Positions 27,173 through 41,185 of a DNA stretch of 64,000 nucleotides are shown here, in pieces. Source of the stretch: Desulfatibacillum sp. Lineage in GTDB: Bacteria; Desulfobacterota; Desulfobacteria; Desulfobacterales; SpSt-501. The notes beneath the pieces were generated by a model. It made no database searches, had not been told where the DNA came from, and saw nothing but the letters and a program-made list of their open reading frames with translations. The translations under genes were made by a program, and so were the position numbers. How positions within the stretch are numbered: position 1 is the stretch's first letter; the number at the start of each line of letters is the position of its first letter. The stretch covers positions 62,001 through 126,000 of the forward strand of contig DYEU01000012.1 of NCBI GenBank assembly GCA_020725555.1, given 5' to 3'.

Positions 27173-27277
27173 GGGGCCGGGATGTTCCGGGGCGCCGGGC
27201 GGGGATGCACGCCGCTCCCCGTCCGGGGGTTTTCCGCGGGGAAGGGCCCGGTGCGATCCGGGCGGGAAGGAGGCGAG

Positions 27278-27766
27278 ATGAGCGATTCGGTCCTCAACGG
27301 CAAACGGCTGCTCGCCGTGGACGACGAGCCCGATGTCCTCGATGCGCTCGAGGAGATCGTCCAGGCCGATGCCCCGGGTTGCACCCTCTACAAGGCGCGG
27401 TCCTACGAGGAGGCGATGCGGCTGCTCGAGGAGCTCGACTTCGATCTCGTGGTGCTCGACATCATGGGGGTGCGGGGCTTCGATCTGCTCGAGGAGGCCG
27501 TCAAGCGGGGCTTGCGGGTCGCGATGCTGACCGCGCACGCGCTCACGCCCGAGGCCCTCAAGCGCTCCTACGACCTCAAGGCGCGTGCGTTTCTGCCCAA
27601 GGAGAAGCTTGCCGAAATCGTGCCCTTCCTCGAGGACGTCCTCACCTGCGATTACGAGACCGGCTGGAAGCGCCTCATGCGCAAGCTGCACGCCTTCTTC
27701 AACGCGCGCTTCGTCTCCGACTGGGAAAAGAAGACCGGCCTCGAGTGGAAGGAATGGGCCAAGTGA
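27278..27766 (+). CDS. Stand-alone response-regulator receiver protein
   Basis: 162 residues. Residues 8-118 are a receiver domain: the acidic pair in LAVDDEPDVLDAL (Asp15-16), the phosphorylated Asp in LVVLDIMGVRGFDLL (about 61), Thr in VAMLTAHAL and Lys in FLPKEKL are all present. The remaining 40 residues form an amphipathic tail (WKRLMRKLHAFFNARFVSDW) without a recognisable DNA-binding fold. AAGGAGG precedes the ATG. No kinase gene adjoins; the nearest is at 56 kb. Confidence 0.9.
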   Translation: MSDSVLNGKRLLAVDDEPDVLDALEEIVQADAPGCTLYKARSYEEAMRLLEELDFDLVVLDIMGVRGFDLLEEAVKRGLRVAMLTAHALTPEALKRSYDLKARAFLPKEKLAEIVPFLEDVLTCDYETGWKRLMRKLHAFFNARFVSDWEKKTGLEWKEWAK

Positions 27767-27791
27767 GCCCCGGGCCGGCGGGCCGAGCGCC

Positions 27792-29093
27792 TCAGGGCAT
27801 GAACCGTTCGGGCAGAAAGGTGCAGATCGCGGGGAACAGAAAGAGCAGCACCCCGCAGAAGAAGATGCTCAGCAGAAACGGGTAGACCCCGCGGTAGATC
27901 GTCCCGAAGGGGACCTTGGTGATGTTCTTCACCACGAAGACGTTGATCGCCACCGGCGGGATCACCACCCCGATCATCACCGTGAGGGCGATGATCATGC
28001 CGAACCAGAGCGGGCTGAAGCCCAGCTTCTCGATCACCGGGAAGAAAATGGGGGTCGCGAGCACCATGAAGGCGAGGTCGTCGATGAAGGAGCCGCCCAG
28101 GAGGTAGATGACCGAGATCATCACCATGACGGCGTAGCGGTTGTAGGGCAGGGAGACGACCCAGTCCGCGGTGATCATCGGGATCTTGGTGACCGCGAGG
28201 AAGTGGCCGAGGACGACCGAGCCCGCGATCAGCATGAGCACCATGCAGGCCGTGCGCAGCGACTCGGCCACCGACTTCACGTAGCCCCGGAAGTTCAAAT
28301 CCCCCTTCAGGATCGAAAGCACGAGGACCGCGAAGGTCCCCACACTTCCCGCCTCGGTGGGCGTGAAGAAGCCTTCCATCAACCCCCCGATCACCAGGGC
28401 GAAGATGACGAGCACCCAGAGCACCTCGGGGAGCGACGCCAGGCGCGTTTTCCAGCTCGAGGGCCGCCCGCGGGGGCCGAGCGCCGGGTTGATCCGGCAC
28501 CAGCCGTAAATGATGCAGACGAACAGGAAGGCGACGATCAGGCCCGGGATCAGCCCGGCGAGGAAGAGCTTGCCGATCGACTGCTCGGTGATGATGCCGA
28601 AGACGATCAGGGTCACGCTGGGCGGCATCAGGATGCCCAGCGTCCCCACCGTGGCCACGATCCCCGTGGAGAGCTTCTTGTCGTAGCCGTAGTGGTCCAT
28701 CTCCGGCACGGCGATGCTGGCGAAGGTCGCGGCCGTCGCCGGGGAGGAGCCGCAGATCGCCTTGAAGGCCGTGGCCCCGGCCACGGTCGCCATGGCGAGC
28801 CCCCCGGGGATGTGGCCGACGAAGGCGTAGGCCGCGGCGTACATGCGGCGGGCGATGCCGGCGTTGAAGGCGATCTGGCCCATGAGGATGAAGAGCGGGA
28901 TGACCGTGAACCCGTAGGAGGAAAGCACGTCGAAGACGTCCTTGGCGAGCAGGTTCAGGCCCGCTTTCCAGGAAACGATCGTGCTGAAGCCCACGAAGCC
29001 GACGAGCGCCATGGCGAAGCCGAGCTCGATGCCGGTGAGAAAGAGCAGCAGCACGGCGGCCAGCCCGACCAGGCCGATCGAGACCTCACTCAT
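27792..29093 (-). CDS. dctM: TRAP transporter large permease subunit
   Basis: 433 residues with about 12 membrane segments. The opening GLVGLAAVLLLFLTGIELGF and internal GGSFIDDLAFMVLATPIFFP are typical of DctM, which forms the Na+-coupled translocation core of tripartite carriers. It overlaps the dctQ-like gene by 8 bases. The third gene of dctPQM, read away from the GntR regulator. Confidence 0.94.
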   Translation of the reverse strand: MSEVSIGLVGLAAVLLLFLTGIELGFAMALVGFVGFSTIVSWKAGLNLLAKDVFDVLSSYGFTVIPLFILMGQIAFNAGIARRMYAAAYAFVGHIPGGLAMATVAGATAFKAICGSSPATAATFASIAVPEMDHYGYDKKLSTGIVATVGTLGILMPPSVTLIVFGIITEQSIGKLFLAGLIPGLIVAFLFVCIIYGWCRINPALGPRGRPSSWKTRLASLPEVLWVLVIFALVIGGLMEGFFTPTEAGSVGTFAVLVLSILKGDLNFRGYVKSVAESLRTACMVLMLIAGSVVLGHFLAVTKIPMITADWVVSLPYNRYAVMVMISVIYLLGGSFIDDLAFMVLATPIFFPVIEKLGFSPLWFGMIIALTVMIGVVIPPVAINVFVVKNITKVPFGTIYRGVYPFLLSIFFCGVLLFLFPAICTFLPERFMP

Positions 29094-29568
29094 AGTGCCC
29101 CCGGAAGAGTTTCACGATGTCCGCCAGCAAGACCAGGCATTCCACGAAGCAGGCCGCCGCGACCCCGTAGGCGACCGGGTAGAACGGAAGCTGGAGCGTG
29201 AGGGAGACCTCCCCGGAGCGCTGCAGGTCGAGGCCGAAGAGGACGAGGTTCCAGCCGATGAGCGCAAACAGGGCGATCCCGAGGCTGCGGGTGGCGAGGT
29301 GGAGCGGCCGCCGCAGCGCCGGCGGGAGCTTGCCGGTGAAGAAGTCGACGTAGATGTGGCCCCGCATCCAGGAGGTGAGCGGCAGGGCGAAGCCGATGAC
29401 CACGGCCCCGGAAAAGGCGACCAGCTCGTAGGTGCCGACGATCGGCCGCCGCAGCAGCCGCAGCACGACATCGAGCACCGTGAGCAGCATGATGAAGGTG
29501 ATGGCGATCCCGGCGATGACGTTGAGCAGGCGGCTCAGCCGCTCGACGAAGGCGAGGGGGCGTTCCAT
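29086..29568 (-). CDS. dctQ: TRAP transporter small permease subunit
   Basis: 160 residues, four membrane segments. LLNVIAGIAITFIMLLTVLD and the R-R-P-I-V-G-T-Y-E-L segment (residues about 38-47) are DctQ family features. It bridges the binding protein and the large permease. It starts 79 bases after dctP and overlaps dctM by 8 bases. Confidence 0.93.
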   Translation of the reverse strand: MERPLAFVERLSRLLNVIAGIAITFIMLLTVLDVVLRLLRRPIVGTYELVAFSGAVVIGFALPLTSWMRGHIYVDFFTGKLPPALRRPLHLATRSLGIALFALIGWNLVLFGLDLQRSGEVSLTLQLPFYPVAYGVAAACFVECLVLLADIVKLFRGHYE

Positions 29569-29647
29569 GCGCGCTCCTCAGCGTGGCCGGGGGCGATCCC
29601 GGCAGAGGGGGGCAGAAGGGCCGGGGCCCTTCTCCCCCCGTGGAGCC

Positions 29648-30676
29648 CTACGGCTGTTTCTTCACTTCCTCGAGGTAAAACTTGAGCGCTTCCTCGCCCG
29701 GGAGGTTCTTCGCCTTCATCCCGGCCACGTATTCGTCCAGGATCGGGCGGACCGCCTGGGCCCATTTCGCATCCTCCTCCTGGGAGAGGGCGATGACCTG
29801 GTTGCCGCGCGCGAGGGTGAACTGGCGGCCCTCCTTGTCGATCTCGTCCCAGAGCCGGCCGGTCTTGTCGACCCATTCGCGGCTGACTTCATCGATCGTC
29901 TTCTGCACCGCCGGGGGCAGGGCCTTCCACTTGTCGAGGTTCATCACCACGAAGAAGCCGGTGCTGTAGGAGGAGCCGAAGTTCTCGATCGTGTACTTGA
30001 CCACCTCGCCCCATTTCCAGCCCTGCAGCGACTCCTGCGGGGCCATGGAGCCGTCGACGACCCCGCGGCTGAGGGCGTCGTAGGTTTCGCCCATGGGCAT
30101 GGCCACGGGCACGGCGCCGAGCGCGGAGACGATCTTCGCCGCCATCCCCGTGCAGCGGATCTTCATCCCCTTGAGGTCGGCGAGGGTGTTCACGGGTTTC
30201 TTCGTGTGCAGCAGGCCCGGCCCGTGGCCGTGGAAGTAGAGCACCTTGACCTCGTTGAACTCGGCGGGCTTGAACTTTTCGTAGTAGGCGTTGATGAGCC
30301 GGCTCGCCGTCAAGCCGCTGCGGATGCCAAGCGGCAGGTCGGTCACCTCGGTCAGCGGGAACTTCCCGCGCGTGTAGGCGAGCACCGAAAAGCCGATGTC
30401 GGAGATGCCCTTGACGACGCCGTCGTAGCACTTGTCGGCCGGGGTGAGGGTCCCCCCGGGGAAGAGGGTGATCTTCACCGCCCCGCCGGTGCGTTTTTCG
30501 ACCTCTTGGGCCCACTCGGTGGCGAGCACGGTCATCTTGTGCGGGGCGGGGAAGAAGATGGAGTAATTGAGCTTGACGGGGTCGGCGGCCTGCGCCGGGC
30601 GCGGCGCTCCGCAGACGATCAGGGCGATTCCCAGAACCGCGGCGACTCCCCAGGCGATCCATGCGGCCTTCTTCAT
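29648..30676 (-). CDS. dctP: TRAP transporter substrate-binding protein (DctP family)
   Basis: 342 residues. The signal peptide (WIAWGVAAVLGIALIVCGAP ending before ADPVKL) sends it to the periplasm. The conserved LKGMKIRCTG region, which includes the arginine that binds the ligand carboxylate, and VDGSMAPQESLQGWKWGEV are DctP-like. A ribosome-binding site (GGGAGGAACGC) precedes the ATG. Ligand probably a carboxylate, otherwise unknown. First gene of the dctPQM operon, with a perfect -35 promoter 230 bases upstream. Confidence 0.93.
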   Translation of the reverse strand: MKKAAWIAWGVAAVLGIALIVCGAPRPAQAADPVKLNYSIFFPAPHKMTVLATEWAQEVEKRTGGAVKITLFPGGTLTPADKCYDGVVKGISDIGFSVLAYTRGKFPLTEVTDLPLGIRSGLTASRLINAYYEKFKPAEFNEVKVLYFHGHGPGLLHTKKPVNTLADLKGMKIRCTGMAAKIVSALGAVPVAMPMGETYDALSRGVVDGSMAPQESLQGWKWGEVVKYTIENFGSSYSTGFFVVMNLDKWKALPPAVQKTIDEVSREWVDKTGRLWDEIDKEGRQFTLARGNQVIALSQEEDAKWAQAVRPILDEYVAGMKAKNLPGEEALKFYLEEVKKQP

Positions 30677-30906
30677 GCGTTCCTCCCTTCGGGCTTGCGG
30701 GTTGGGGGACAGGGGCGCCGGCGTGGCGGCATTCCAGGGATCCGCGCGGGCCGTCTTTGCCGCCGGACCACGCCGCAATGCCGACGAAACCGGACCGCGG
30801 TCTTCGCCCCCGGGGCGCCGGGGGCGTCGCGGCCACACGGCCCGGGTCTTCTCTCGTCGATCCACCGTGGAACGCAGGGCAATGCTGGAGGCGATGGTTT
30901 CGACCT

Positions 30907-30935
30907 TATGTAATCCAAGGCCTCCCGGGTGTCAA
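30907..30935 (-). promoter_or_regulatory. Sigma-70 promoter of the dctPQM operon
   Basis: On the minus strand a perfect TTGACA (30930-30935), an exact 17-base spacer and TACATA (30907-30912). The -35 box begins one base from the TGCAAT-GTG-ATTGCA palindrome, so a protein bound there would contact or occlude RNA polymerase. Confidence 0.68.
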
Positions 30936-30936
30936 T

Positions 30937-30951
30937 TGCAATGTGATTGCA
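30937..30951. promoter_or_regulatory. Palindromic candidate operator between divergent promoters
   Basis: TGCAAT-GTG-ATTGCA is a perfect inverted repeat of 6-base arms around 3 bases. It abuts the minus-strand -35 and overlaps the plus-strand -35 candidate, the expected site for a dimeric repressor such as the adjacent GntR protein. Confidence 0.5.
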
Positions 30952-30975
30952 TTGTAGCTGTGATGAAGCTAAAAA
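30947..30975 (+). promoter_or_regulatory. Candidate promoter of the GntR regulator gene
   Basis: TTGCAT (30947-30952), a 17-base spacer and TAAAAA (30970-30975). The -35 lies inside the palindrome, compatible with autoregulation. It is weaker than the opposing promoter. Confidence 0.38.
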
Positions 30976-31096
30976 GCCGGGGTGCGGCCCTCTCCGCTCG
31001 CGGCGGCGGAAGCTTCGGTTGCCAGATCGCGCCGACCGATGATAGAGCGTTTCCCGCCACGGCGGCGACGGGGAGCGAGCGCCCCGCCCCCCGGGC

Positions 31097-31867
31097 ATGC
31101 GAAAGGACCCCCGAGCGGTGCTCAACCCCCACGAGTCGACCCCGCTCTACCTCGGCCTGCGCGAGCTCCTGCGCGGCAAGCTCGCCGCGGGCGAATACCC
31201 CCCCGACCAGGCCATCCCCTCGGAGCGCGCGCTCTGCCGGGCCTACGGCGTAAGCCGCATCACCGTGCGCCAGGCGATCGCCGGGCTGATCCACGAGGGG
31301 CTTCTCTACCGCCGGCCGGGCAAGGGGACCTACGCCGCCCCGCGCAAGGTGAGCCAGGGGCTCGGCCGCTTCGTCCGTTTCGCGCAGACGGTCGCGCAGA
31401 TCGGCCTTGCCCCGGCGACGCGCATCCTCTTTTCCGGCAACGCGGCGCCGGATCCCGAGGCGGCCGCCGTGCTGGGGCTCGACGCCGAGCGGGTCGCCCC
31501 CCGGCTCCGGCTCCTGGGGCTGGGGGACGGCCGGCCGCTCGTCGTCTACGACTCCTTTTTCGCCCCGGATGCGGGGGCGGCGATCCTCGCCGCGGCCGAG
31601 CGGCGCGGGCGCTCCGGGGCGCCCTTTTCCAGCTACGACCTCTGGGAGGAAGCCGGCGGGCCGCGGCCGGTCCGCGTGCAGCAGACGCTCGAGGCCTTAA
31701 GCGCCGCGGGGCCTGCGGCGAAGCAGCTCGCCGTGCCGCCCGGCCGGGCGCTCCTGCGGGTGGTCTCGGTCTTCGAGGACCGCCGCGGCCGGCCGCTCGA
31801 GTTCCGGCGCGCCCTCTACCGCGGCGACCTCTACAAGTTCCAGGTGGTGCGCGAGCTCGCGGACTGA
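31097..31867 (+). CDS. GntR-family regulator with UTRA domain (HutC subfamily)
   Basis: 256 residues. Residues about 14-85 are a winged helix (LRGKLAAGEYPPDQAIPSER, then YGVSRITVRQAIAGLIHEGL and RRPGKGTY), residues about 95-250 a UTRA ligand-binding domain (GLGRFVRFAQT to RALYRGDLYKFQV). HutC-type regulators bind palindromic operators as dimers and usually respond to the substrate of neighbouring genes. It lies between a divergent dctPQM operon and the downstream TAXI operon and could control either or both. No strong ribosome-binding site; a GTG 20 bases downstream is an alternative start. Confidence 0.92.
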   Translation: MRKDPRAVLNPHESTPLYLGLRELLRGKLAAGEYPPDQAIPSERALCRAYGVSRITVRQAIAGLIHEGLLYRRPGKGTYAAPRKVSQGLGRFVRFAQTVAQIGLAPATRILFSGNAAPDPEAAAVLGLDAERVAPRLRLLGLGDGRPLVVYDSFFAPDAGAAILAAAERRGRSGAPFSSYDLWEEAGGPRPVRVQQTLEALSAAGPAAKQLAVPPGRALLRVVSVFEDRRGRPLEFRRALYRGDLYKFQVVRELAD

Positions 31868-31917
31868 CGAAAGATCCCCGGGGGGCGGGGGTCGGCGGTT
31901 GACAGGCCGTGCATCCA

Positions 31918-31933
31918 ACTGGTAATGACCGGA
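31918..31933. promoter_or_regulatory. DasR/YvoA-like candidate GntR operator before the TAXI operon
   Basis: ACTGGT-AATG-ACCGGA resembles the HutC-subfamily dre pattern ACTGGT-N4-ACCAGT; the right half deviates at two positions. A perfect TTGACA is at 31899-31904, 13 bases upstream, so the site would lie over the spacer and -10 region of the TAXI promoter. Confidence 0.4.
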
Positions 31934-32023
31934 TAGAACCACTGCCGTCTCGCCCCTGCACCGGCACATCCCTTTCCGGCGACCGCCGGTCGCCGCCTTC
32001 CCGCCCGGAGAAAGGAGGAAGCC

Positions 32024-33049
32024 ATGCACGCCCCCCGCCCGCACACCCGTTTCCTCGCCGTGATCGCCTTCCTCGCGCTTGCGCTGGGGACCGGTTTCCC
32101 CGCGGCCGAGGCCCAGGTCCGCAACCTCAACATGGGCAGCACCTCGTCCACCTCGCCGGTCTACGCCTGGGCCGTCGCCACGGCCAACGTCATCAACAAG
32201 GCCAACGTCGGCCTCAACGTCACCGTGGTCGAAAGCGGGGCCGCCCTCGACAACCTGCGCAAGCTGAAGGAGGGCGTCTTCGACTTCGCCCTCTCGATCG
32301 ACATCCCCTCGGCCATGCAGATGTACCACGGGATCGACTCCTTCAAGGGCCAGCCCTGGAAGGACGTGCGCGTCCTCTTCATCCGCAACGTGACCGTGGA
32401 CCGCGTTTACGTGCGCAAGGACGCAGGTGTGCGGACCTTCCGGGAGCTCGCCGGCAAGAAATTTTCGCCGGGCATCCCGGGCGCCTCCTCGACGGCCTAC
32501 ATGATGAAGTTCAACGAGGTCCTCAAGGCGAACATCGCCTTCGTCCCCGGCACGCTCGCCGACTCGATCGCCGCCCTGCAGACGAACCGCATCGTCGGGC
32601 TGCAGAAGACGAGCCCGGTCAAGGCCATGGACTCCTCGCTGATCGAGGTGAACCTCACCACCCCGCTCACCGTGATCGGCTTCACCGCCGAGGACGTGGC
32701 CGCGATCACCAAGGCCTATCCCTACATCCCCTTCATCGAGACCCCCCGGGGGACGATCGCCCAGCTGCCCGAGGCCGGGCCGATGCACGAGCTCGCCCCC
32801 ATCGTGGGCGCGATGGCCTCGAAGGATCTCCCGGAGGATGTCGTCTACCGCATCGTGAAGTCCTACGTCGAGGGCCAGCCGGAGGTCGCCGCCTCCTACC
32901 CCGCGGTCAAGGGGTGGGACCCCGTCGCGGACCTCTTCCGCTATGTACCCGAGGGGGCCGAGGTGCCGGCGCACGCCGGGCTCGTCCGCTACGCGCGCGA
33001 GCGCGGCATCGAGGTGCCCAAGCGCTTCCTGCCCCCCGAAGTGAAGTGA
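32024..33049 (+). CDS. TAXI-family TRAP transporter solute-binding protein
   Basis: 341 residues with a signal peptide ending near FPAAEA. The mature start RNLNMGSTSSTSPVYAWAVA is a variant of the TAXI ligand-binding motif, followed by NVTVVESGAALDNLRKLKEG. TAXI proteins supply ligand (glutamate/glutamine-like or related in known cases) to fused TRAP permeases. AAAGGAGGAAGCC precedes the ATG. The next gene, 64 bases on, is such a permease. Ligand not predictable. Confidence 0.92.
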   Translation: MHAPRPHTRFLAVIAFLALALGTGFPAAEAQVRNLNMGSTSSTSPVYAWAVATANVINKANVGLNVTVVESGAALDNLRKLKEGVFDFALSIDIPSAMQMYHGIDSFKGQPWKDVRVLFIRNVTVDRVYVRKDAGVRTFRELAGKKFSPGIPGASSTAYMMKFNEVLKANIAFVPGTLADSIAALQTNRIVGLQKTSPVKAMDSSLIEVNLTTPLTVIGFTAEDVAAITKAYPYIPFIETPRGTIAQLPEAGPMHELAPIVGAMASKDLPEDVVYRIVKSYVEGQPEVAASYPAVKGWDPVADLFRYVPEGAEVPAHAGLVRYARERGIEVPKRFLPPEVK

Positions 33050-33113
33050 GGCGGGCGGCGGTTCCCCTTTCCGCGCCCGCCCCGCGCGGGCGCCCCCTGG
33101 AGGACCGGGACCC

Positions 33114-35000
33114 ATGCTGCCGCAGAAAGGGTTCACGACCCGGAACGTCCTCTTTGTCGGCGGGTTGGGCTTCGCCCTCTTTCAGCTCGTGCTGCCCGTC
33201 TTCGTCCACCTGATCGACCTCGAGCTACGGGCGCTCCATGTGCTCTTCGGCATTTCGCTCGCCTTCTTCCAGTTTCCCTTCCGCGCCGGCCGCGAGCGCC
33301 AGCGGCCGGGGTTCTGGACCTGGCTGGCGGCGGCGGCCGTGGCCGCGGCGACGCTCAACGTCTTCTTCAAGGCGATGGACATCTACGCCCGGCCCGGCAC
33401 GGCCGACACCGTGGACCTCGCCCTCGGCGCGGTGCTCTTCGTCCTCGTTCTCGAGGCCGGCCGGCGCACGATGGGGATCGCGGCCCCGATCCTTCTTCTC
33501 TCCCTGGTCGCCTACATCTACTGCGCGCCGTGGTTCCCCGGGGTCTGGCAGATGCGGCGGCTCTCCGGATCCTTTCTCCTCGGCTCGGTCTACTACTCCC
33601 CGCTCGGGATCTTCGGCGGGGTAACCGGGATGTCGGCGACCTTCATCGCCATGTTCGTCCTCTTCGGGGCGCTCCTTTCGGTCACCGGCGGGGGGCGGAC
33701 CTTCATCGATCTGGCGCTCGCGCTCACGGGGCGCTTCACGGGCGGGCCGGCCAAGACGGCCGTCGTGGCGAGCTCGCTCTTCGGCAGCATCTCGGGCAGC
33801 GCCGTCGCCAACGTCATGGTGACCGGCAACTACACGATCCCCCTGATGAAGAAGTACGGCTACGAGCCCGAGTTCGCGGCCTCGGTGGAGGCGATCTCCT
33901 CGACCGGCGGCGGGGTCACCCCGCCGATCATGAGCATCACGGCCTTCATGATGGCCGAGTTCCTGAACCTCTCCTACCTCAAGATCATCGTCTACGCCCT
34001 GATCCCCTGCGTCCTCTACTACACGGGGGTGATGGCCGGGGTCCACTTCCGCACCGTGCGCCTGGGCCTGAGGGGGCTACCGCGCGAGGAGATCCCGCCC
34101 TGGTCGGAGATCCTGCGCTTCAAGAAGCTCGCGGGCTTTCTCGTGCCCACGGGGACGCTGCTCTGGCTCATCTTCTCGGGCTACCCCCTCGTCGAGGCGG
34201 GCTTCTGGGCGTCGGCCGCGGCGCTCACGGTCTACGCCGTCAACCACGTGCGCGAGGTGGGCGGCCGCGAGCTCGCGGCCGGGGTGCTGCGCGCGCTCAG
34301 CGCGGGCGGCCTGGACATCGTGCGGCTGGTCCCGATCCTCGTCTGCATGAGCGTCCTCGTCAACCTGATCGGGGTGACGGGGCTCGCCCCGAAGCTCAGC
34401 GCGGTCATCCTCGAGATCGGGACCGAAAACCTCTACCTCTCGCTGTTGATCGCCTCGATCCTGCCGCTCGTTCTGGGGACCGCGCTGCCGGTGGTTCCGA
34501 CCTACCTCCTCTCCATGTCCATCTTGACGCCCGCGCTGCTCAAGCTCGGCGTGGACGAGGTCGCCGCCCACCTCTTCTACATCTACTGGGGGGTTCTCGG
34601 GGCGATCACGCCGCCCACCTGCGAGGCCGCCGTCGTCGCCGCCGGGATCGCCAAGGGAAACTGGGTGCGGACGGCGAACTATGCCATGAAGCTCGGCGCG
34701 GTCGCCTTCTGCCTGCCCTATTTCATGGTCCTTCACCCGGCGCTCGTCGCCCGCGACACGCCGGAGCGGATCGGGATCGCCGCGGTCACCGGCTTTCTGG
34801 GCGCCGTCAGCATGGCCTACGGGCTCTTCGGGCACGCCCCGTCGCGCTGGAACCCGCTCTTGCGGGTGCTGTTCTTCGCGGGCGGCATGATGATGCTCTT
34901 TCCCGGAATGGAGATCTCGGCGGCCGGCCTCGGGGTCGCCGCCGCAAGCCTCGTGCTCAACCGCCTCCTCGGAAACGCCCGCCCCGCCGCCGCGGCCTGA
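33114..35000 (+). CDS. TRAP transporter fused (4TM-12TM) permease, TAXI type
   Basis: 628 residues. The first 180 correspond to the small DctQ-like subunit and the rest to DctM, in one chain, as is normal in TAXI systems. The region SSLFGSISGSAVANVMVTGN and later STGGGVTPPIMSITAFMMAE is a strong family signature. The C-terminal part ends in a run of hydrophobic segments. The next gene starts 34 bases after the stop. Confidence 0.94.
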   Translation: MLPQKGFTTRNVLFVGGLGFALFQLVLPVFVHLIDLELRALHVLFGISLAFFQFPFRAGRERQRPGFWTWLAAAAVAAATLNVFFKAMDIYARPGTADTVDLALGAVLFVLVLEAGRRTMGIAAPILLLSLVAYIYCAPWFPGVWQMRRLSGSFLLGSVYYSPLGIFGGVTGMSATFIAMFVLFGALLSVTGGGRTFIDLALALTGRFTGGPAKTAVVASSLFGSISGSAVANVMVTGNYTIPLMKKYGYEPEFAASVEAISSTGGGVTPPIMSITAFMMAEFLNLSYLKIIVYALIPCVLYYTGVMAGVHFRTVRLGLRGLPREEIPPWSEILRFKKLAGFLVPTGTLLWLIFSGYPLVEAGFWASAAALTVYAVNHVREVGGRELAAGVLRALSAGGLDIVRLVPILVCMSVLVNLIGVTGLAPKLSAVILEIGTENLYLSLLIASILPLVLGTALPVVPTYLLSMSILTPALLKLGVDEVAAHLFYIYWGVLGAITPPTCEAAVVAAGIAKGNWVRTANYAMKLGAVAFCLPYFMVLHPALVARDTPERIGIAAVTGFLGAVSMAYGLFGHAPSRWNPLLRVLFFAGGMMMLFPGMEISAAGLGVAAASLVLNRLLGNARPAAAA

Positions 35001-35034
35001 GGCCTCCCGGGAGGGACCGGAAAGGATCCCCGCC

Positions 35035-36426
35035 ATGGTCCGACGCAAGGAAACCCTGCGCATCCTCTGCCCCAACGGGCACCTGGGGTTCGCCCCGACC
35101 AAGGAGGAGAGCTTCTGGATCGGGGCCGAGACCCGGCCCGATTACTACTGCTGCGACTCGGGCTCCGACGACATCGGGCCCGTGCCGCTCGGAACGGACA
35201 CGAGCGTCAGCCCCTACGACTGGCAGCTCCACGACCTCGAGCTCATGCTCCTCGCCGCGCGCCGCCAGGGGGTGCCGATGATGATCGGCTCGGCGGGCGA
35301 CACCGGGACGAACAGCCGGGTCGAGCGCTACATCGAGATCATCCGCAAGCTCGCCCGCAAGCACCGGCTCCGGGCCTTCAAGCTCGTCGCCTTTTACTCC
35401 GAGCTCGACAAGGCCGAGCTCCGGCGCCGCATGGAATCCGGGGTCGTGGTCGCGGGGCTGGACAACCGGCCCGCCCTGACGCGGGAGGAGCTCGAGGCGA
35501 CCGAGCGCATCGTGGCCATGGCCGGGGTCCATCCCTTCATGAAGGCGCTCGCCCTGGGGGCCGACGTCGTGATCGGCGGCCGGAGCAGCGACGCCGCGAT
35601 CTTCGCCGCGGCGGCCCTGCACGAGGGCTTCCCCGAGGAGCACGCCTACTACCTCGGCAAGGTGCTCGAGTGCGCCTCCTTCTGCGCCGAGCCCTACATG
35701 GCCAAGGAGACCGTGATCGGCACCGTGACCCACCGGGACGTGACCGTGACCGCCATGCACCCGGCGCAGCGCTGCACGGTCGCCTCGGTCGCCGGCCATG
35801 CGATGTACGAGCGCTCCAACGCCTTTTACGAGCATTTCGCGGGCGGCACCCTCGACATGACCGGCTGCCGCTACGAGCAGGTGGACGAGAAGAGCACCCG
35901 CGTCACGGGCCAGCGCTTCCTTGCCTCCGCAGACGGCATCCGCGTCAAGCTCGAAGGATCGGGCCGGGTGGGCGAGCGCTTTATCGGCATCGTCGGCATC
36001 CGCGACCCCTACTCCATCCGCCACATCGATCAGGTGATCGGCTGGGCCCGGAGCCAGGTCGAGGAGCGCTTCGCCGGCCGGCCCTACGAGCTCTACTACC
36101 ACGTCTACGGCCGAAACGGCGTCATGGGGGACCTCGAACCCGTGCGCGAGATCCGCAGCCACGAGCTCTGCATCGTCGTCGAGGGGGTCGCCCCCACGGC
36201 GGAGATGGCCGAGGAGGTGACCCTCATCGGCTCGCGCCAGATCTTCTACGCCCGGCTGCCCGAGGTGAAAGGGACCGCGGGGACGGCGGCCTTCGTGATC
36301 GACGGGGTGCTGCCCGCGCCGCCCGCCTACCGCTGGACGTTGAACCACGTGCTGCCGGTCGCCGACCCGCTGGAGCTGTTCCCGATCCGCGAGATGGTGA
36401 TCCGCGACGGGGAGGAGGGGGCATGA
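35035..36426 (+). CDS. AtuA family protein (DUF1446)
   Basis: 463 residues. RILCPNGHLGFAPTKEESFW, then SAGDTGTNSRVERYIEII and VIGGRSSDAAIFAAAALHEG, are the DUF1446 signatures; in Pseudomonas AtuA belongs to acyclic-terpene utilisation, but its reaction is undefined. It follows the permease by 34 bases and its stop overlaps the start of the DUF4387 gene, so it is the catabolic half of a transport operon. The role may be isomerase- or lyase-like on the imported acid; that is inference. Confidence 0.88.
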   Translation: MVRRKETLRILCPNGHLGFAPTKEESFWIGAETRPDYYCCDSGSDDIGPVPLGTDTSVSPYDWQLHDLELMLLAARRQGVPMMIGSAGDTGTNSRVERYIEIIRKLARKHRLRAFKLVAFYSELDKAELRRRMESGVVVAGLDNRPALTREELEATERIVAMAGVHPFMKALALGADVVIGGRSSDAAIFAAAALHEGFPEEHAYYLGKVLECASFCAEPYMAKETVIGTVTHRDVTVTAMHPAQRCTVASVAGHAMYERSNAFYEHFAGGTLDMTGCRYEQVDEKSTRVTGQRFLASADGIRVKLEGSGRVGERFIGIVGIRDPYSIRHIDQVIGWARSQVEERFAGRPYELYYHVYGRNGVMGDLEPVREIRSHELCIVVEGVAPTAEMAEEVTLIGSRQIFYARLPEVKGTAGTAAFVIDGVLPAPPAYRWTLNHVLPVADPLELFPIREMVIRDGEEGA

Positions 36427-36749
36427 GGACGGTCAAACTCGTCGATCTCGCCAAGACCATCCGCAGCAAGAACGCCGGCACCGACAAGATCACCTTCGAC
36501 ATCATCTTCCGCGAGAAGGAGAACTACGAGCGCGTGAAGCAAAGCGGGGTCCTCACGCGCGCGCGTGTGGCCGAGCTCTTCAACATCCCCCAGGAGCGGA
36601 TCAGCGACTTCCACGAGTTCGACCCCGCGCTCGCGATCAAGTTCACCCTCTACCGCAGCCGGCCGAGCGGCAGCCCCGGGGAAAGCGACATCTTCGGCTG
36701 CCAGCAGTACCCGCCGCTGCTCGACCTCGAGGTGCCGGTCGACCCCTGA
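36423..36749 (+). CDS. DUF4387 family protein (AtuA partner)
   Basis: 108 residues, starting RTVKLVDLAKTIRSKNAGTD, followed by ITFDIIFREKENYERVKQSG, the pattern of DUF4387 proteins found next to AtuA/DUF1446. Its ATG overlaps the AtuA stop (ATGA). The two probably form a complex. No catalytic residue is obvious. Last gene of the TAXI operon; convergent with putA. Confidence 0.88.
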   Translation: MRTVKLVDLAKTIRSKNAGTDKITFDIIFREKENYERVKQSGVLTRARVAELFNIPQERISDFHEFDPALAIKFTLYRSRPSGSPGESDIFGCQQYPPLLDLEVPVDP

Positions 36750-36801
36750 GGAACGGGGCGAAGCGGCCCCCCGCCGCGCCCGCGGCACGCCCCGGGCGGC
36801 G

Positions 36802-39800
36802 TCAGTCCTCGAACGCCGCCGCCCGGAAGCCGAGGTTCCCCCAGCGGTGGGTGTCGATCGAGAGGCTCTGGCCGCGGAGCCCGTGGAGGAGCTCGAGGCG
36901 GCCCTCCATGAGGACGGGGGCGCGGGCGACGTGGACGCCGCGCGCCGCGGCCGCGGCGAGGAGGCGGCCGGAGACGCGGTCGGGGGCCGCGGCGCGGAGG
37001 CGGCAGGTGTCGTCGAGGGCGGCGATCAGCTCCTCCTCGCCCTCCTCGACGCGCGACACGCCCGCCGCGAGGCGGAGGCCTTCCGGCCCCGACAGGAAAC
37101 GGGCCGCGGCGGTGTCGAGCCCGGGGGGCAGGCTGAGGCGCACGCGGTTTCCGGCCGCGCGCGCGGCGGCGAGGCGCACGACGGTCTCGAAGATCCCGTC
37201 CCGCGGGTCGAGGCGCACGACGACCGTCCCGGCGGGCAGAAACCGGTGCCGGTTTTCCTGGCCCCGCAGGTGGTAGGCGTCCGCCGGGGCGAACTCCCGC
37301 TCCATCGCCGCCAGCAGGCTGCGCAGGGCGACGACCGCGCGCCCGATCTCCGCCCGCTCTCCGGCGGGGAAGCGGCCTGAGGCGAGCATCTCCTCCCAGC
37401 GGCCGGCGAGCCGCCACAGGGGGGAGGTGTCGCGGACCGGCTCGAGGGGCGGCGGCCCGGTTTCCTCGACGTCGAGAAACTGCAGCGCGTAGTGGGGGCC
37501 CCCGGCCTGGATCCCCGCGCCGAAGGCCGACTGGCCCATGCCGCCGAAGGGCTGGCGGCCGACGATCGCCCCGGTCGTCGGCCGGTTGATGTAGAGGTTC
37601 CCGGCGCGGATGTGCTCCTGCCAGTAGGCCCACTCCCGCGGGTCGAGGCTCTCGAGGCCCGCGGTCAGCCCGTAGCCCGTCCGGTTGGCGAGGGCGACGG
37701 CATGGGCGAGGTCCCGCGCGCACATCACCGCGAGCACCGGCCCGAAGAGCTCCGTCAGGTGCACGGCGCTTCCGGGCCTCACCCCCCAGCGGATCCCCGG
37801 CGTCCACAGCTGCGGGTTGCCCCCCAGGGGGCGGGGGGCGGGGTCCCAGGACTCGCCGGGATCGAGCCGGGTCAAGGCCTCGCGCAGCGCCCCCTCCGGC
37901 GGCCGCACGAGCGGCCCCATGCGGCTTGCGAAATCCCAGGCCGGGCCCGCGCGAAACGAGGCCGCCGCGTCCGCGAGGCGGCGGCGGAAGGAGTCGTCCT
38001 CGTAGACCTCGCGCTCGAGGATGAGCAGCGAGGTCGCCGAGCACTTCTGGCCGCTGTGGCCGAAGGCGGAGACCACGACGTGGGCGATCGCCTGGTCGCG
38101 GTCCGCGGCCGCGGTGACGATGGTGGCGTTCTTGCCCCCGGTCTCGGCGGCCAGCGGCAGCCCCGGCCGGAGCCGCAGGATCTCGCGGGCGGTCTCGGTC
38201 CCGCCGGTCAGGACGGCGAAGTCGACCCGCGGGTCCAGGACGAGGCGGCGGCCCGCCTCCGCCCCCGCGCCGGGGACGAACTGCAGCGCGCTCGGCGGCA
38301 CCCCCGCCCGGATGAAGCAGCGGACCAGGAGCCAGCCGACGGTCACGGCGAGCGAGGAGGGCTTGAAGACGACCGTGTTGCCGGCCGCAAGGGCGGCGGC
38401 GATCCCGCCGCAGGGGATGGAGACCGGGAAGTTCCAGGGCGAGAGCACCGCGACGACGCCCTTGCCCCGGAGGCGAAGGTGGGGGGCGGCGAACCAGCGG
38501 CGCAGCGACAGGGGGTAGTAGCGCGCGAAGTCGACCGCCTCGGAGACCTCGGGGTCGGTCTCGGTGAAGAGCTTCCCCGTGGTCGCGGCCGCGGCGCCCA
38601 GGAATTCCCCGCGGGCGGCGGCGATTTCGCGGGCGGCGTCGAAGAGGATGCGCTCGCGCTCGGCGTGCGGCATGGCCCGCCAGCCGTCCGCATCGGCGCG
38701 GGCGGCGGCGATCGCCCGCTCGAGTTCGGCCTCCCCGGCCGCGGCGGTGCGGGCGACCGCGACGCGCAAGGGGAGTCGGTTGGGGTCGAGCTCCTCGCGG
38801 GCGCCCGGGCCGGGGGCGATCTCCTCGCCCGCGACCAGGAGCGGGACGGAAAGCGGCGGGGTGACGGGCGCGCGGCGCCAGCGGTCGCGGATCGCGGCGG
38901 CCCAGGCGCGGTTGGCGGCGAGCGCCCAGTCGGTGGGCGGCTCGTTGCGGAAGGCGGCCTCCGCGGCGAGGGGGGATGCGCCCCCGGCCGGCTCCCGGCC
39001 CCGGTCCTGGCGGCGGTGGGGGGCCGGCGGGGGGAGGATCAGGCGGCTTGCGGATTCGCGGAAGGCGGCGGCGAGCGCCTGCCAGGCGTCGTCGCCCGGG
39101 GCGAGGCTCCCGGCGTGGCGCAGGAAGTGGCCCCGACCCGTGTTTTCATCGAGCCTGCGCACGAGGTAGGCGATCGCCGCGAGGAAGTGGCGGCGCTCCG
39201 CCGTCGGGGCGTAGGTGAGCACCTCGAAGCCCCGGGCGGCGATCGCGCGCCGCAGCGGGTTGGCCATGCCCTCGAGCATCTCGATCTGGATGCGCTCCTT
39301 GACGCCGCGGCGCTCGGCCAGCCGGCAGGCGAAGGCGAGGTCGAAGGGATTGTGCGAGGCGATGCCGGGGCGCACGGCGCGGGTGCGCGCGGGGTCGAGC
39401 AGGAAGGCGACCATGCGCTTCCATTGGGCGTCGGTCTCGGCCTTCTCCTCGAAGCAGGCGAGCGGCCAGTTGCGGTGGGCGGCCTCCAGGCGCTCCATCT
39501 CGAGGTTGGCGCCCTTGACGATGCGGATCTTGATCGGGCTGCCGCCGCCCGCGACCCGCGCCTCGGCCCAGGCGCAGAGCTCGCGGAGGATCCCCCAGGA
39601 GTCCGGGAGGTAGGCCTGAAGCGCCATCCCGGCGAAGACCCCGCGGAGCTCGGGGCGCTCGAGGGCGCGGCGGAAGGCCGCGGCGGTGAGGGCGAGGTCG
39701 CGGAAGCCCTCCATGTCGAGGGTCACGGTCTTGGGGACCCACCGGCCGTCGGCGCGCAGGAAGCGGCGGCGGGCGGCCTCGCCGAAGAGGGGGGCGAGCC

Positions 39801-40428
39801 GCTCGGCGATCCGCGCGGCGTTTTCCTCGAAGGCGAGCGGCTCCATCCAGGGGACGAGGCTTGAGATCTTGACCGCGATCTGCTCGACGCCGGGGCGGCG
39901 GAGATCGGCGAGATAGGTTTCCAGGAAGGCCTGGGCCTCGGCCTCGCCCAGCACCTCTTCGCCGATGCGGTTGAGGTTGACCCGCAGGCCCTCCCGCCGG
40001 CGGGCTTCAAGGTAGGCGGCGAGCGGGGCGGGTTCGCCGGGGAGGATGACGTGGCGGCTCTCGCGGCGCAGCCCCGCGAAGACGGCCCGCACGGCCGCCG
40101 CCGGGAAAAGCGGGCCGAGGCGCAGCAGAAGCCGGAGGGCGAGCCGCTCGGGGGGCGAGAAAAAGCTTGGAATGCCCTCGGCGTCGAGCAGCGCGCGCAT
40201 CCCCCCGAGCGCGCGCCGCGGGTCGGCCGGCCGGAAGCCGCGGTCGATCCAGGCGACGAGCACGGCCTTGTCGTGCGCCGCGGCGGCCAGCCGGGAAAGG
40301 CGCCGGCCGCGGCGCCGTTCCGCGGGCGTCGCCTGCGCCGCCGCCTCCTCCCAGAGGCGCCGCGCGAGCGCCGGGGCTTCTTCGGCCGCGGCCGCGATCT
40401 CTTCCCAGGCGTCGGGCAACGGGGTCAT
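36802..40428 (-). CDS. putA: Bifunctional proline dehydrogenase / glutamate-semialdehyde dehydrogenase
   Basis: 1208 residues, start MTPLPDAWEEIAAAAEEAPA. PRODH domain to about residue 480 (PIKIRIVKGANLEMERLEA and IEMLEGMANPLRRAIAARGF hold substrate and FAD), then an aldehyde dehydrogenase (SPWNFPVSIPCGGIAAALAAG, catalytic Cys796 in FGHSGQKCSAT, Glu in LAAETGGKNA). The last 180 residues resemble the extra C-terminal ALDH-like domain of type B PutA. The N-terminal ribbon-helix-helix of E. coli PutA is absent, so it is not a DNA-binding repressor. Proline is converted to glutamate with electrons to quinone. It follows livF by 43 bases. Confidence 0.94.
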   Translation of the reverse strand: MTPLPDAWEEIAAAAEEAPALARRLWEEAAAQATPAERRRGRRLSRLAAAAHDKAVLVAWIDRGFRPADPRRALGGMRALLDAEGIPSFFSPPERLALRLLLRLGPLFPAAAVRAVFAGLRRESRHVILPGEPAPLAAYLEARRREGLRVNLNRIGEEVLGEAEAQAFLETYLADLRRPGVEQIAVKISSLVPWMEPLAFEENAARIAERLAPLFGEAARRRFLRADGRWVPKTVTLDMEGFRDLALTAAAFRRALERPELRGVFAGMALQAYLPDSWGILRELCAWAEARVAGGGSPIKIRIVKGANLEMERLEAAHRNWPLACFEEKAETDAQWKRMVAFLLDPARTRAVRPGIASHNPFDLAFACRLAERRGVKERIQIEMLEGMANPLRRAIAARGFEVLTYAPTAERRHFLAAIAYLVRRLDENTGRGHFLRHAGSLAPGDDAWQALAAAFRESASRLILPPPAPHRRQDRGREPAGGASPLAAEAAFRNEPPTDWALAANRAWAAAIRDRWRRAPVTPPLSVPLLVAGEEIAPGPGAREELDPNRLPLRVAVARTAAAGEAELERAIAAARADADGWRAMPHAERERILFDAAREIAAARGEFLGAAAATTGKLFTETDPEVSEAVDFARYYPLSLRRWFAAPHLRLRGKGVVAVLSPWNFPVSIPCGGIAAALAAGNTVVFKPSSLAVTVGWLLVRCFIRAGVPPSALQFVPGAGAEAGRRLVLDPRVDFAVLTGGTETAREILRLRPGLPLAAETGGKNATIVTAAADRDQAIAHVVVSAFGHSGQKCSATSLLILEREVYEDDSFRRRLADAAASFRAGPAWDFASRMGPLVRPPEGALREALTRLDPGESWDPAPRPLGGNPQLWTPGIRWGVRPGSAVHLTELFGPVLAVMCARDLAHAVALANRTGYGLTAGLESLDPREWAYWQEHIRAGNLYINRPTTGAIVGRQPFGGMGQSAFGAGIQAGGPHYALQFLDVEETGPPPLEPVRDTSPLWRLAGRWEEMLASGRFPAGERAEIGRAVVALRSLLAAMEREFAPADAYHLRGQENRHRFLPAGTVVVRLDPRDGIFETVVRLAAARAAGNRVRLSLPPGLDTAAARFLSGPEGLRLAAGVSRVEEGEEELIAALDDTCRLRAAAPDRVSGRLLAAAAARGVHVARAPVLMEGRLELLHGLRGQSLSIDTHRWGNLGFRAAAFED

Positions 40429-40471
40429 TCGCCGGATGGGTCTCCGCCGCCGGGGGCCGGCGCCCGCGGCG

Positions 40472-41185
40472 TCAGTGTTCTCCGAGGTAGGCCTTGCGCA
40501 CGATCTCGTTTTCGGCGAGGCGGGCGGCCGCGTCGCTGAAGAGGATCGCCCCCGATTGCAAGACGTAGCCGCGGCGCGCGATCTGCAAGGCCATGCGGGC
40601 GTTCTGCTCGACAAGCAGAATCGTCGTCCCGGCCTCGTTCAGCCGCCGGATGGTCTCGAAGATCCCGTCCACGAGCACGGGGGCGAGCCCCATGGAGGGC
40701 TCGTCCATGAGGAGGATCTTGGGGTTGGCCATGAGGGCCCGCCCCATGGCGAGCATCTGCTGCTCGCCCCCGGAGAGGGTGCCGGCGACCTGGCGCGAGC
40801 GCTCCTTGAGGCGGGGGAACAGGGCGAAGACGCGCTCGAGGTTTTCGGCGTTCCGGCGGCGGTCGGAACAGGTGAAGGCGCCCATGTCGAGGTTTTCGAG
40901 GACCGTGAGGCGGCCGAAGATCCGGCGCCCCTCGGGGACCTGAACGATCCCCTCGCGCACGACCTCGTGGGGGGGAAGGCGGGTCAGCTCCCGGCCCTCC
41001 AGGCGGATCGAGCCGCTGCGCGGCCGGAGCAGCCCGCTGGCGGTCTTGAGGAGGGTGCTCTTGCCGGCGCCGTTGGCCCCGATGATGGTGACGATCTCGC
41101 CGCGCTCGACCTCGACGGAGATGCCCTTCAGGGCGTGGATGTTGCCGTAGTAGGTGTGGATGTCCTGGATCTCGAGCATGGCCAT
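40472..41185 (-). CDS. livF: LIV-type ABC transporter ATP-binding protein LivF
   Basis: 237 residues with Walker A (GANGAGKST), signature LSGGEQQMLAMGRALMANPK and Walker B LLMDEPSMGLAP. LivF-like by the TIQ-variant ILLVEQNARMALQIA near the end. Energises uptake of branched-chain or other amino acids. ATG at 41185 (second at 41179) is preceded by GGAGGAAGAG. Confidence 0.93.
   Translation of the reverse strand: MAMLEIQDIHTYYGNIHALKGISVEVERGEIVTIIGANGAGKSTLLKTASGLLRPRSGSIRLEGRELTRLPPHEVVREGIVQVPEGRRIFGRLTVLENLDMGAFTCSDRRRNAENLERVFALFPRLKERSRQVAGTLSGGEQQMLAMGRALMANPKILLMDEPSMGLAPVLVDGIFETIRRLNEAGTTILLVEQNARMALQIARRGYVLQSGAILFSDAAARLAENEIVRKAYLGEH

Follow-up and report, generated by a model that had tools for sequence, protein, structure and literature searches.

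A TAXI TRAP operon with a putative AtuA-DUF4387 lyase of the CmlAB fold in Desulfatibacillum sp.

In a DNA stretch of 64,000 nucleotides from Desulfatibacillum sp. (the window), five genes between positions 31097 and 36749 are, with moderate confidence, best explained as a self-contained import-and-cleave operon. It would combine a TAXI-type TRAP transporter and a lyase of the CmlAB fold under the control of a UTRA-GntR regulator, with the adjoining DctPQM transporter as a separate system. The TAXI protein would bind a small hydroxy-carboxylate and the fused permease would import the acid. AtuA as the large and DUF4387 as the small subunit would form one enzyme, which would cleave a 3-hydroxy acid at the C-C bond next to its hydroxyl-bearing (probably tertiary) carbon. 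The products, a keto compound and a simple acid, would go straight into central metabolism, so that no other enzyme would be needed in the operon. The regulator would bind a pair of overlapping dyads in the gap between the GntR and TAXI genes, and presumably keeps the operon repressed in the absence of its ligand. The imported substrate is probably a hydroxy acid similar to citramalate, and not citramalate itself.

Gene content and conservation of the operon

The first gene encodes a GntR-type regulator with a UTRA (HutC-type) ligand domain (31097-31867, forward strand; PF00392 2e-17 and PF07702 2e-18, both over cut-off). It is followed on the same strand by a TAXI-family TRAP solute-binding protein with a signal peptide (32024-33049; TIGR02122 TRAP_TAXI 103 bits, cut-off 84), whose relatives in the PDB are 1US4/8U79, and by a fused TRAP permease (33114-35000; TIGR02123 TRAP_fused 502 bits, cut-off 321). 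AtuA (DUF1446; 35035-36426, forward strand; PF07287 6e-24) and DUF4387 (36423-36749, forward strand; PF14330 1e-36) are the putative large and small subunits of a two-subunit C-C lyase. An earlier reading, based on the letters and open reading frames only (the sequence-only reading), had described these five genes in this order, and Pfam and NCBIfam profiles confirmed all of them at these positions. The tight spacing it noted applies to the ATGA overlap joining AtuA to DUF4387 (36423-36426) and to the gaps of 64 bp between TAXI and permease and 34 bp between permease and AtuA. The gap between GntR and TAXI, however, is wider (156 bp) and contains the predicted operator.

The source genome (3.59 Mb, 35 contigs) carries one AtuA gene and one DUF4387 gene. 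In another species of the genus (the congener) the whole block is syntenic, with the gene order response regulator, DctMQP, GntR, TAXI, permease, AtuA, DUF4387 and PutA. Protein identity between window and congener is 95% for AtuA, 96% for TAXI and 93% for the permease, and 72 of the codon differences in AtuA are synonymous and 25 non-synonymous. This synteny with mainly synonymous codon differences indicates that the arrangement is real and maintained, and not a product of chance. Gene content, spacing, operator and conservation in the congener all support the former description as an import and catabolism operon. The GntR gene has changed more quickly than the other operon genes (48 non-synonymous and 68 synonymous differences). 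On the reverse strand, a PutA-like bifunctional proline dehydrogenase/aldehyde dehydrogenase is encoded at 36802-40614. It reaches 359 bits against a cut-off of 747 for the PutA equivalog and extends about 220 residues past its aldehyde dehydrogenase domain.

Relationship of the AtuA-DUF4387 pair to citramalate lyase

In a sequence search against solved structures, AtuA has a sole strong match, 9ERQ_A (CmlA, E 2e-77), and DUF4387 also has only one, 9ERQ_B (CmlB, E 2e-21). The two proteins match the A and B chains of one complex (9ERQ/9EVF), which was deposited as the citramalate lyase CmlA/CmlB. The deposition title of 9EVF is "Citramalate lyase - ADP - pyruvate complex". A structure model of AtuA (pLDDT 87.7), built from the subfamily of the window, was aligned to 9EVF_A over 452 residues (Z 48.5, rmsd 2.6), with the next best chain at Z 8.7, and Foldseek gave a TM score of 0.90 for the same chain. 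Structural matches other than 9EVF cover residues 312-432 only with Z < 9, and nothing was drawn from these. A literature search found no primary paper for 9ERQ/9EVF, so the name citramalate lyase rests on the deposition together with gene context.

This context is found in the glutamate-fermentation loci on a Prevotella nigrescens plasmid (L103:2856-12232) and in E. coli (L151:4446-13877). In both, genes for AtuA, DUF4387 and fumarase come after glmS-glmL-glmE-mal. The fumarase is of class I, and glutamate mutase and methylaspartate ammonia-lyase adjoin the CmlA-type pair. CmlA-type pairs also adjoin fumarase in Klebsiella and Neorhizobium. The Prevotella and E. coli clusters contain a route from glutamate to citramalate in which only the citramalate-cleaving step is missing. 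A paper of 2015 called it unclear what becomes of citramalate in the E. coli cluster, and at that time the DUF1446 gene had no assigned function (PMC4682846). AtuA-DUF4387 as a citramalate lyase would close this gap. A review of 2025, citing unpublished results, describes that the AtuA-like ThnQ/ThnS of anaerobic naphthalene degradation cleave a 3-hydroxy acid which is a tertiary alcohol (PMC12016498). C-C cleavage beside a tertiary hydroxylated carbon is the theme common to CmlAB and ThnQ/ThnS. ThnQ/ThnS, likened here to the window pair by description, differ in their CoA-ester substrate and in belonging to a long degradation operon. The sequence-only reading had stated that AtuA and DUF4387 have no defined reaction. 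This is outdated for the family in view of 9ERQ/9EVF and ThnQ/ThnS but still true for the subfamily found in the window.

The window pair shares both subunits, the fold of the whole large subunit and the family-invariant residues with CmlAB, but is only 35% (AtuA) and 43% (DUF4387) identical to it. Across the alignments, identity to CmlA is 33-35% for the window AtuA and 53-56% for the fumarase-linked proteins. The window's own group, in contrast, is 48-74% identical to the window AtuA across 80 loci from Bacillota, Pseudomonadota, Actinomycetota, Deinococcota, Lentisphaerota and others. In the tree this group is separate from the CmlA clade, which includes the fumarase- and methylaspartate-linked proteins, on a long and fully supported stem; deep placements are unsure because several rows are long. 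About 50 positions, many of them polar, are invariant in both groups, and 33 positions are fixed differently, the window AtuA lacking the CmlA-fixed residues at these. It deviates at one of the invariant positions (A263), at which P is the usual residue of its clade. We infer from the shared invariant and the group-specific fixed positions that the window pair belongs to a sister subfamily of CmlAB with the same chemistry and a different substrate, so that citramalate is probably not the substrate. With an identity of 33-35%, the reaction itself could be a different one as well.

A profile search identified no mesaconase or methylaspartate genes in the window operon, again in contrast to the loci of CmlAB. 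In the source genome, methylaspartate ammonia-lyase (MAAL_C) has no match over the cut-off and the single class I fumarase is located on another contig. For these two reasons the acid is probably imported and not made from glutamate. The E. coli cluster glmS-glmL-glmE-mal-DUF1446-DUF4387-symporter-fumarase also places AtuA-DUF4387 beside a dicarboxylate transporter. Its pair, however, belongs to the CmlA-type clade and its citramalate is an intracellular product of glutamate, while the substrate of the window operon seems to be taken up from outside.

The regulator, its predicted operator and the divergent DctPQM transporter

The GntR/UTRA protein is 33-42% identical to UTRA regulators located beside AtuA of the same subfamily in other phyla. 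A 16 bp operator motif (consensus ACTTGTTATAACAAGT) was trained on the regions upstream in other UTRA-GntR loci and seeded with two palindromes present there. The window was left out of this training. The motif was found in 28 of 44 regions. Its best two sites in the 64 kb window adjoin each other upstream of TAXI (31918 and 31928), and form a predicted GntR operator of two overlapping dyads, ACTGGTAATGACCGGA and ACCGGATAGAACCACT, 10 bp apart (31918-31943). The median motif score upstream of AtuA is 21.6 in loci with the regulator and -2.1 in loci without it, of which only the latter figure, together with the window, is an independent test, since the motif was trained on regulator-bearing loci. 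A first-order Markov control of 64 kb gave single scores as high as 11.7. One site alone is therefore not significant, and the case for the operator is based on the adjacency of the two sites, on where they lie and on their conservation in the congener. There, ACTGGTAATGACCGGATAG forms an unbroken island in an otherwise diverged GntR-TAXI gap, and the first operator site is again the best in 19.5 kb. CTGGTNATNACC has 11 matches in the whole genome, among which the match in the operator region alone scores well. Just upstream of the operator, TTGACA (31899-31904, forward strand) may represent a -35 element, and CGGTTGACAGG is conserved here in the congener; a scan with the sigma-70 consensus did not find a complete promoter. 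The palindromic operator upstream of TAXI is the predicted binding site of the UTRA-GntR protein.

On the other side of the regulator, a second TRAP system of three genes is encoded on the reverse strand, as the sequence-only reading had observed. It consists of the binding protein DctP (29648-30676; PF03480 7e-53), the small permease DctQ (29086-29568; PF04290 6e-21) and the large permease DctM (27792-29093; PF06808 8e-91, TIGR00786 over cut-off). DctP has many solved relatives; no ligand was derived from them, and a literature search on these relatives yielded nothing. The divergent adjacency is real and conserved in the congener, which would fit the former proposal that one regulator serves both TRAP systems and that related carboxylates enter by two routes. 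The predicted operator, however, is present upstream of TAXI only. The gap between DctP and GntR contains no such site (best motif score -5.5) and instead carries the palindromic element ATTGCAATGTGATTGCA (30935-30951), which is conserved in the congener, unlike the GntR operator and unique in the source genome within one mismatch. Relatives of DctP occur in 35 of 58 genomes of the order, and in stretches from two other families of the order DctPQM was found without GntR, TAXI or AtuA. In the other genomes of the order that were listed, DUF4387 has no match. The missing operator site, the different palindrome and the occurrence of DctPQM without AtuA in two other families let DctPQM appear independent. 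It looks like a separate neighboring transporter, and two uptake routes under a shared regulator are highly improbable.

Gene neighborhoods of the subfamily and the possible substrate

Within the subfamily, AtuA has DUF4387 as its next gene in 80 of 81 other loci. Across 82 loci, named genes were counted up to 9 kb from AtuA, and these counts are approximate, as the clusters were made by BLAST on mechanical ORFs. As importers, a Dpp-type ABC permease was found in about 35 loci, TRAP DctM in 20, SSF in 12 and a tripartite tricarboxylate (TTT) binding protein in 9. A sigma-54 activator (41 loci) and UTRA-GntR (23) were found as regulators, and C45 (29) and C26 (18) as hydrolases. TAXI and fused permease directly upstream of AtuA occur only in the window and the congener among the loci examined. 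The pairing with DUF4387 is kept while the transporters vary, which argues for an interchangeable transporter and for the enzyme pair as the core of the system.

The loci of Rhodobacterales and relatives have DUF4387 and an AtuA of the window's subfamily (about 65% identical), but use a Dpp ABC importer and a sigma-54 activator and contain a C45 enzyme as an extra amide hydrolase. In Rhodobacterales (L045, L055, L056, L059, L063 and similar loci) RpoN-SBP5-DppBCDF-C45 hydrolase-sigma-54 activator-AtuA-DUF4387 form a highly conserved block, which in many loci starts with the gene for sigma-54 itself. The SBP5 of an ABC-linked locus matches generic peptide-, opine- and glutathione-binding relatives in the PDB and gives no clue to the substrate. 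In five loci of unrelated genomes (L032, L033, L045, L051, L085), genes resembling glutaryl-CoA dehydrogenase and succinate-glutarate CoA-transferase are located near the AtuA pair. Glutarate was considered as a product and rejected as too thin, since these neighbors occur in 4-5 loci only and both are below the NCBIfam cut-offs. The source genome contains a separate cluster of SBP5, DppBC and ATPases, followed by an amidohydrolase and a C26 peptidase (L130:1728-9085). By sequence the amidohydrolase reads like an isoaspartyl dipeptidase (IadA-like), and the cluster looks like an operon for uptake and hydrolysis of isopeptides. Its C26 gene, the strong one of the genome, was considered as part of the AtuA system and rejected, because it belongs to this Dpp cluster and has no operator site.

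For the enzyme pair, several other functions can be weighed against the cleavage of a citramalate-like acid. A strict citramalate lyase, which would convert imported (S)- or (R)-citramalate to pyruvate and acetate, agrees with the nearest solved relative, the sole characterized fold mate, and with citramalate being a C5 dicarboxylate like the known TAXI ligands. The sequence distance compared to the fumarase-linked clade, the 33 fixed differences and the separate, long-stemmed group in the tree argue against it, as do a genome without a methylaspartate ammonia-lyase over the cut-off and with its fumarase elsewhere, and amide hydrolases instead of mesaconase as neighbors in the subfamily. We regard it as unlikely. 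The distance from CmlA could also point to a different chemistry in the same fold, for example a nucleotide-dependent ligase, an isomerase or a hydrolase, and nucleotide chemistry is possible because 9EVF contains ADP. Given the conserved family-wide invariant residues, two separate lyases known or deposited in the family and an operon with no other catabolic enzyme, such a function is quite unlikely. Utilization of acyclic terpenes is suggested by the family name AtuA only. The flanking genes scanned (27182-40614) include neither geranyl-CoA carboxylase nor other Atu partners, and the loci of the subfamily have transporters and regulators instead. A role in terpene degradation alone, which the sequence-only reading had named as evidence against its proposal, is hardly credible here.

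A further possibility refines the import-and-cleave operon and does not compete with it. The pair would cleave the acid part of an amide conjugate, which C45 or C26 hydrolases release in other genomes, and here the free acid would be imported. In many related loci the pair has an amide hydrolase of type C45 or C26 beside it, two unrelated types with seemingly one job, and an amidohydrolase lies near the pair in L044. The window operon, however, contains no such hydrolase, the strong C26 gene of the genome belongs to another transporter cluster, and many TRAP, SSF and TTT loci have neither C45 nor C26. This origin of the acid is a tentative suggestion. For the subfamily as a whole, it is possible, but somewhat less than an even chance, that it represents an unrecognized, widespread lyase with a substrate other than citramalate, which is released from an amide conjugate by C45/C26 enzymes in many lineages and taken up by transporters that can replace each other (Dpp ABC, TRAP, SSF, TTT).

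Among TAXI systems with known ligands, the glutamate transporter VcGluP and the alpha-ketoglutarate transporter of Proteus mirabilis both take up C5 dicarboxylates (cited in PMC11574862). They share the TAXI protein and the fused permease with the window system, which differs in that its transporter genes are linked to those of a UTRA regulator and of a two-subunit catabolic enzyme. By analogy, these ligands would fit a small dicarboxylate as substrate of the operon and prove nothing.

The system belongs to a family whose chemistry was only recently deposited. AtuA and DUF4387 are moved from "no known reaction" to a concrete chemistry that can be tested, and two subfamilies are set apart that share the label "acyclic terpene utilization" in automatic annotation. 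The small operon of an importer and one enzyme, together with an operator common to many phyla, offers a short route to the substrate. The answer would carry over to the 80 loci studied here and probably to many more; one scan gave 551 relatives of the family. If the proposed function is true, it would represent an undescribed catabolic route in Bacillota, Pseudomonadota, Actinomycetota, Deinococcota, Lentisphaerota and other phyla.
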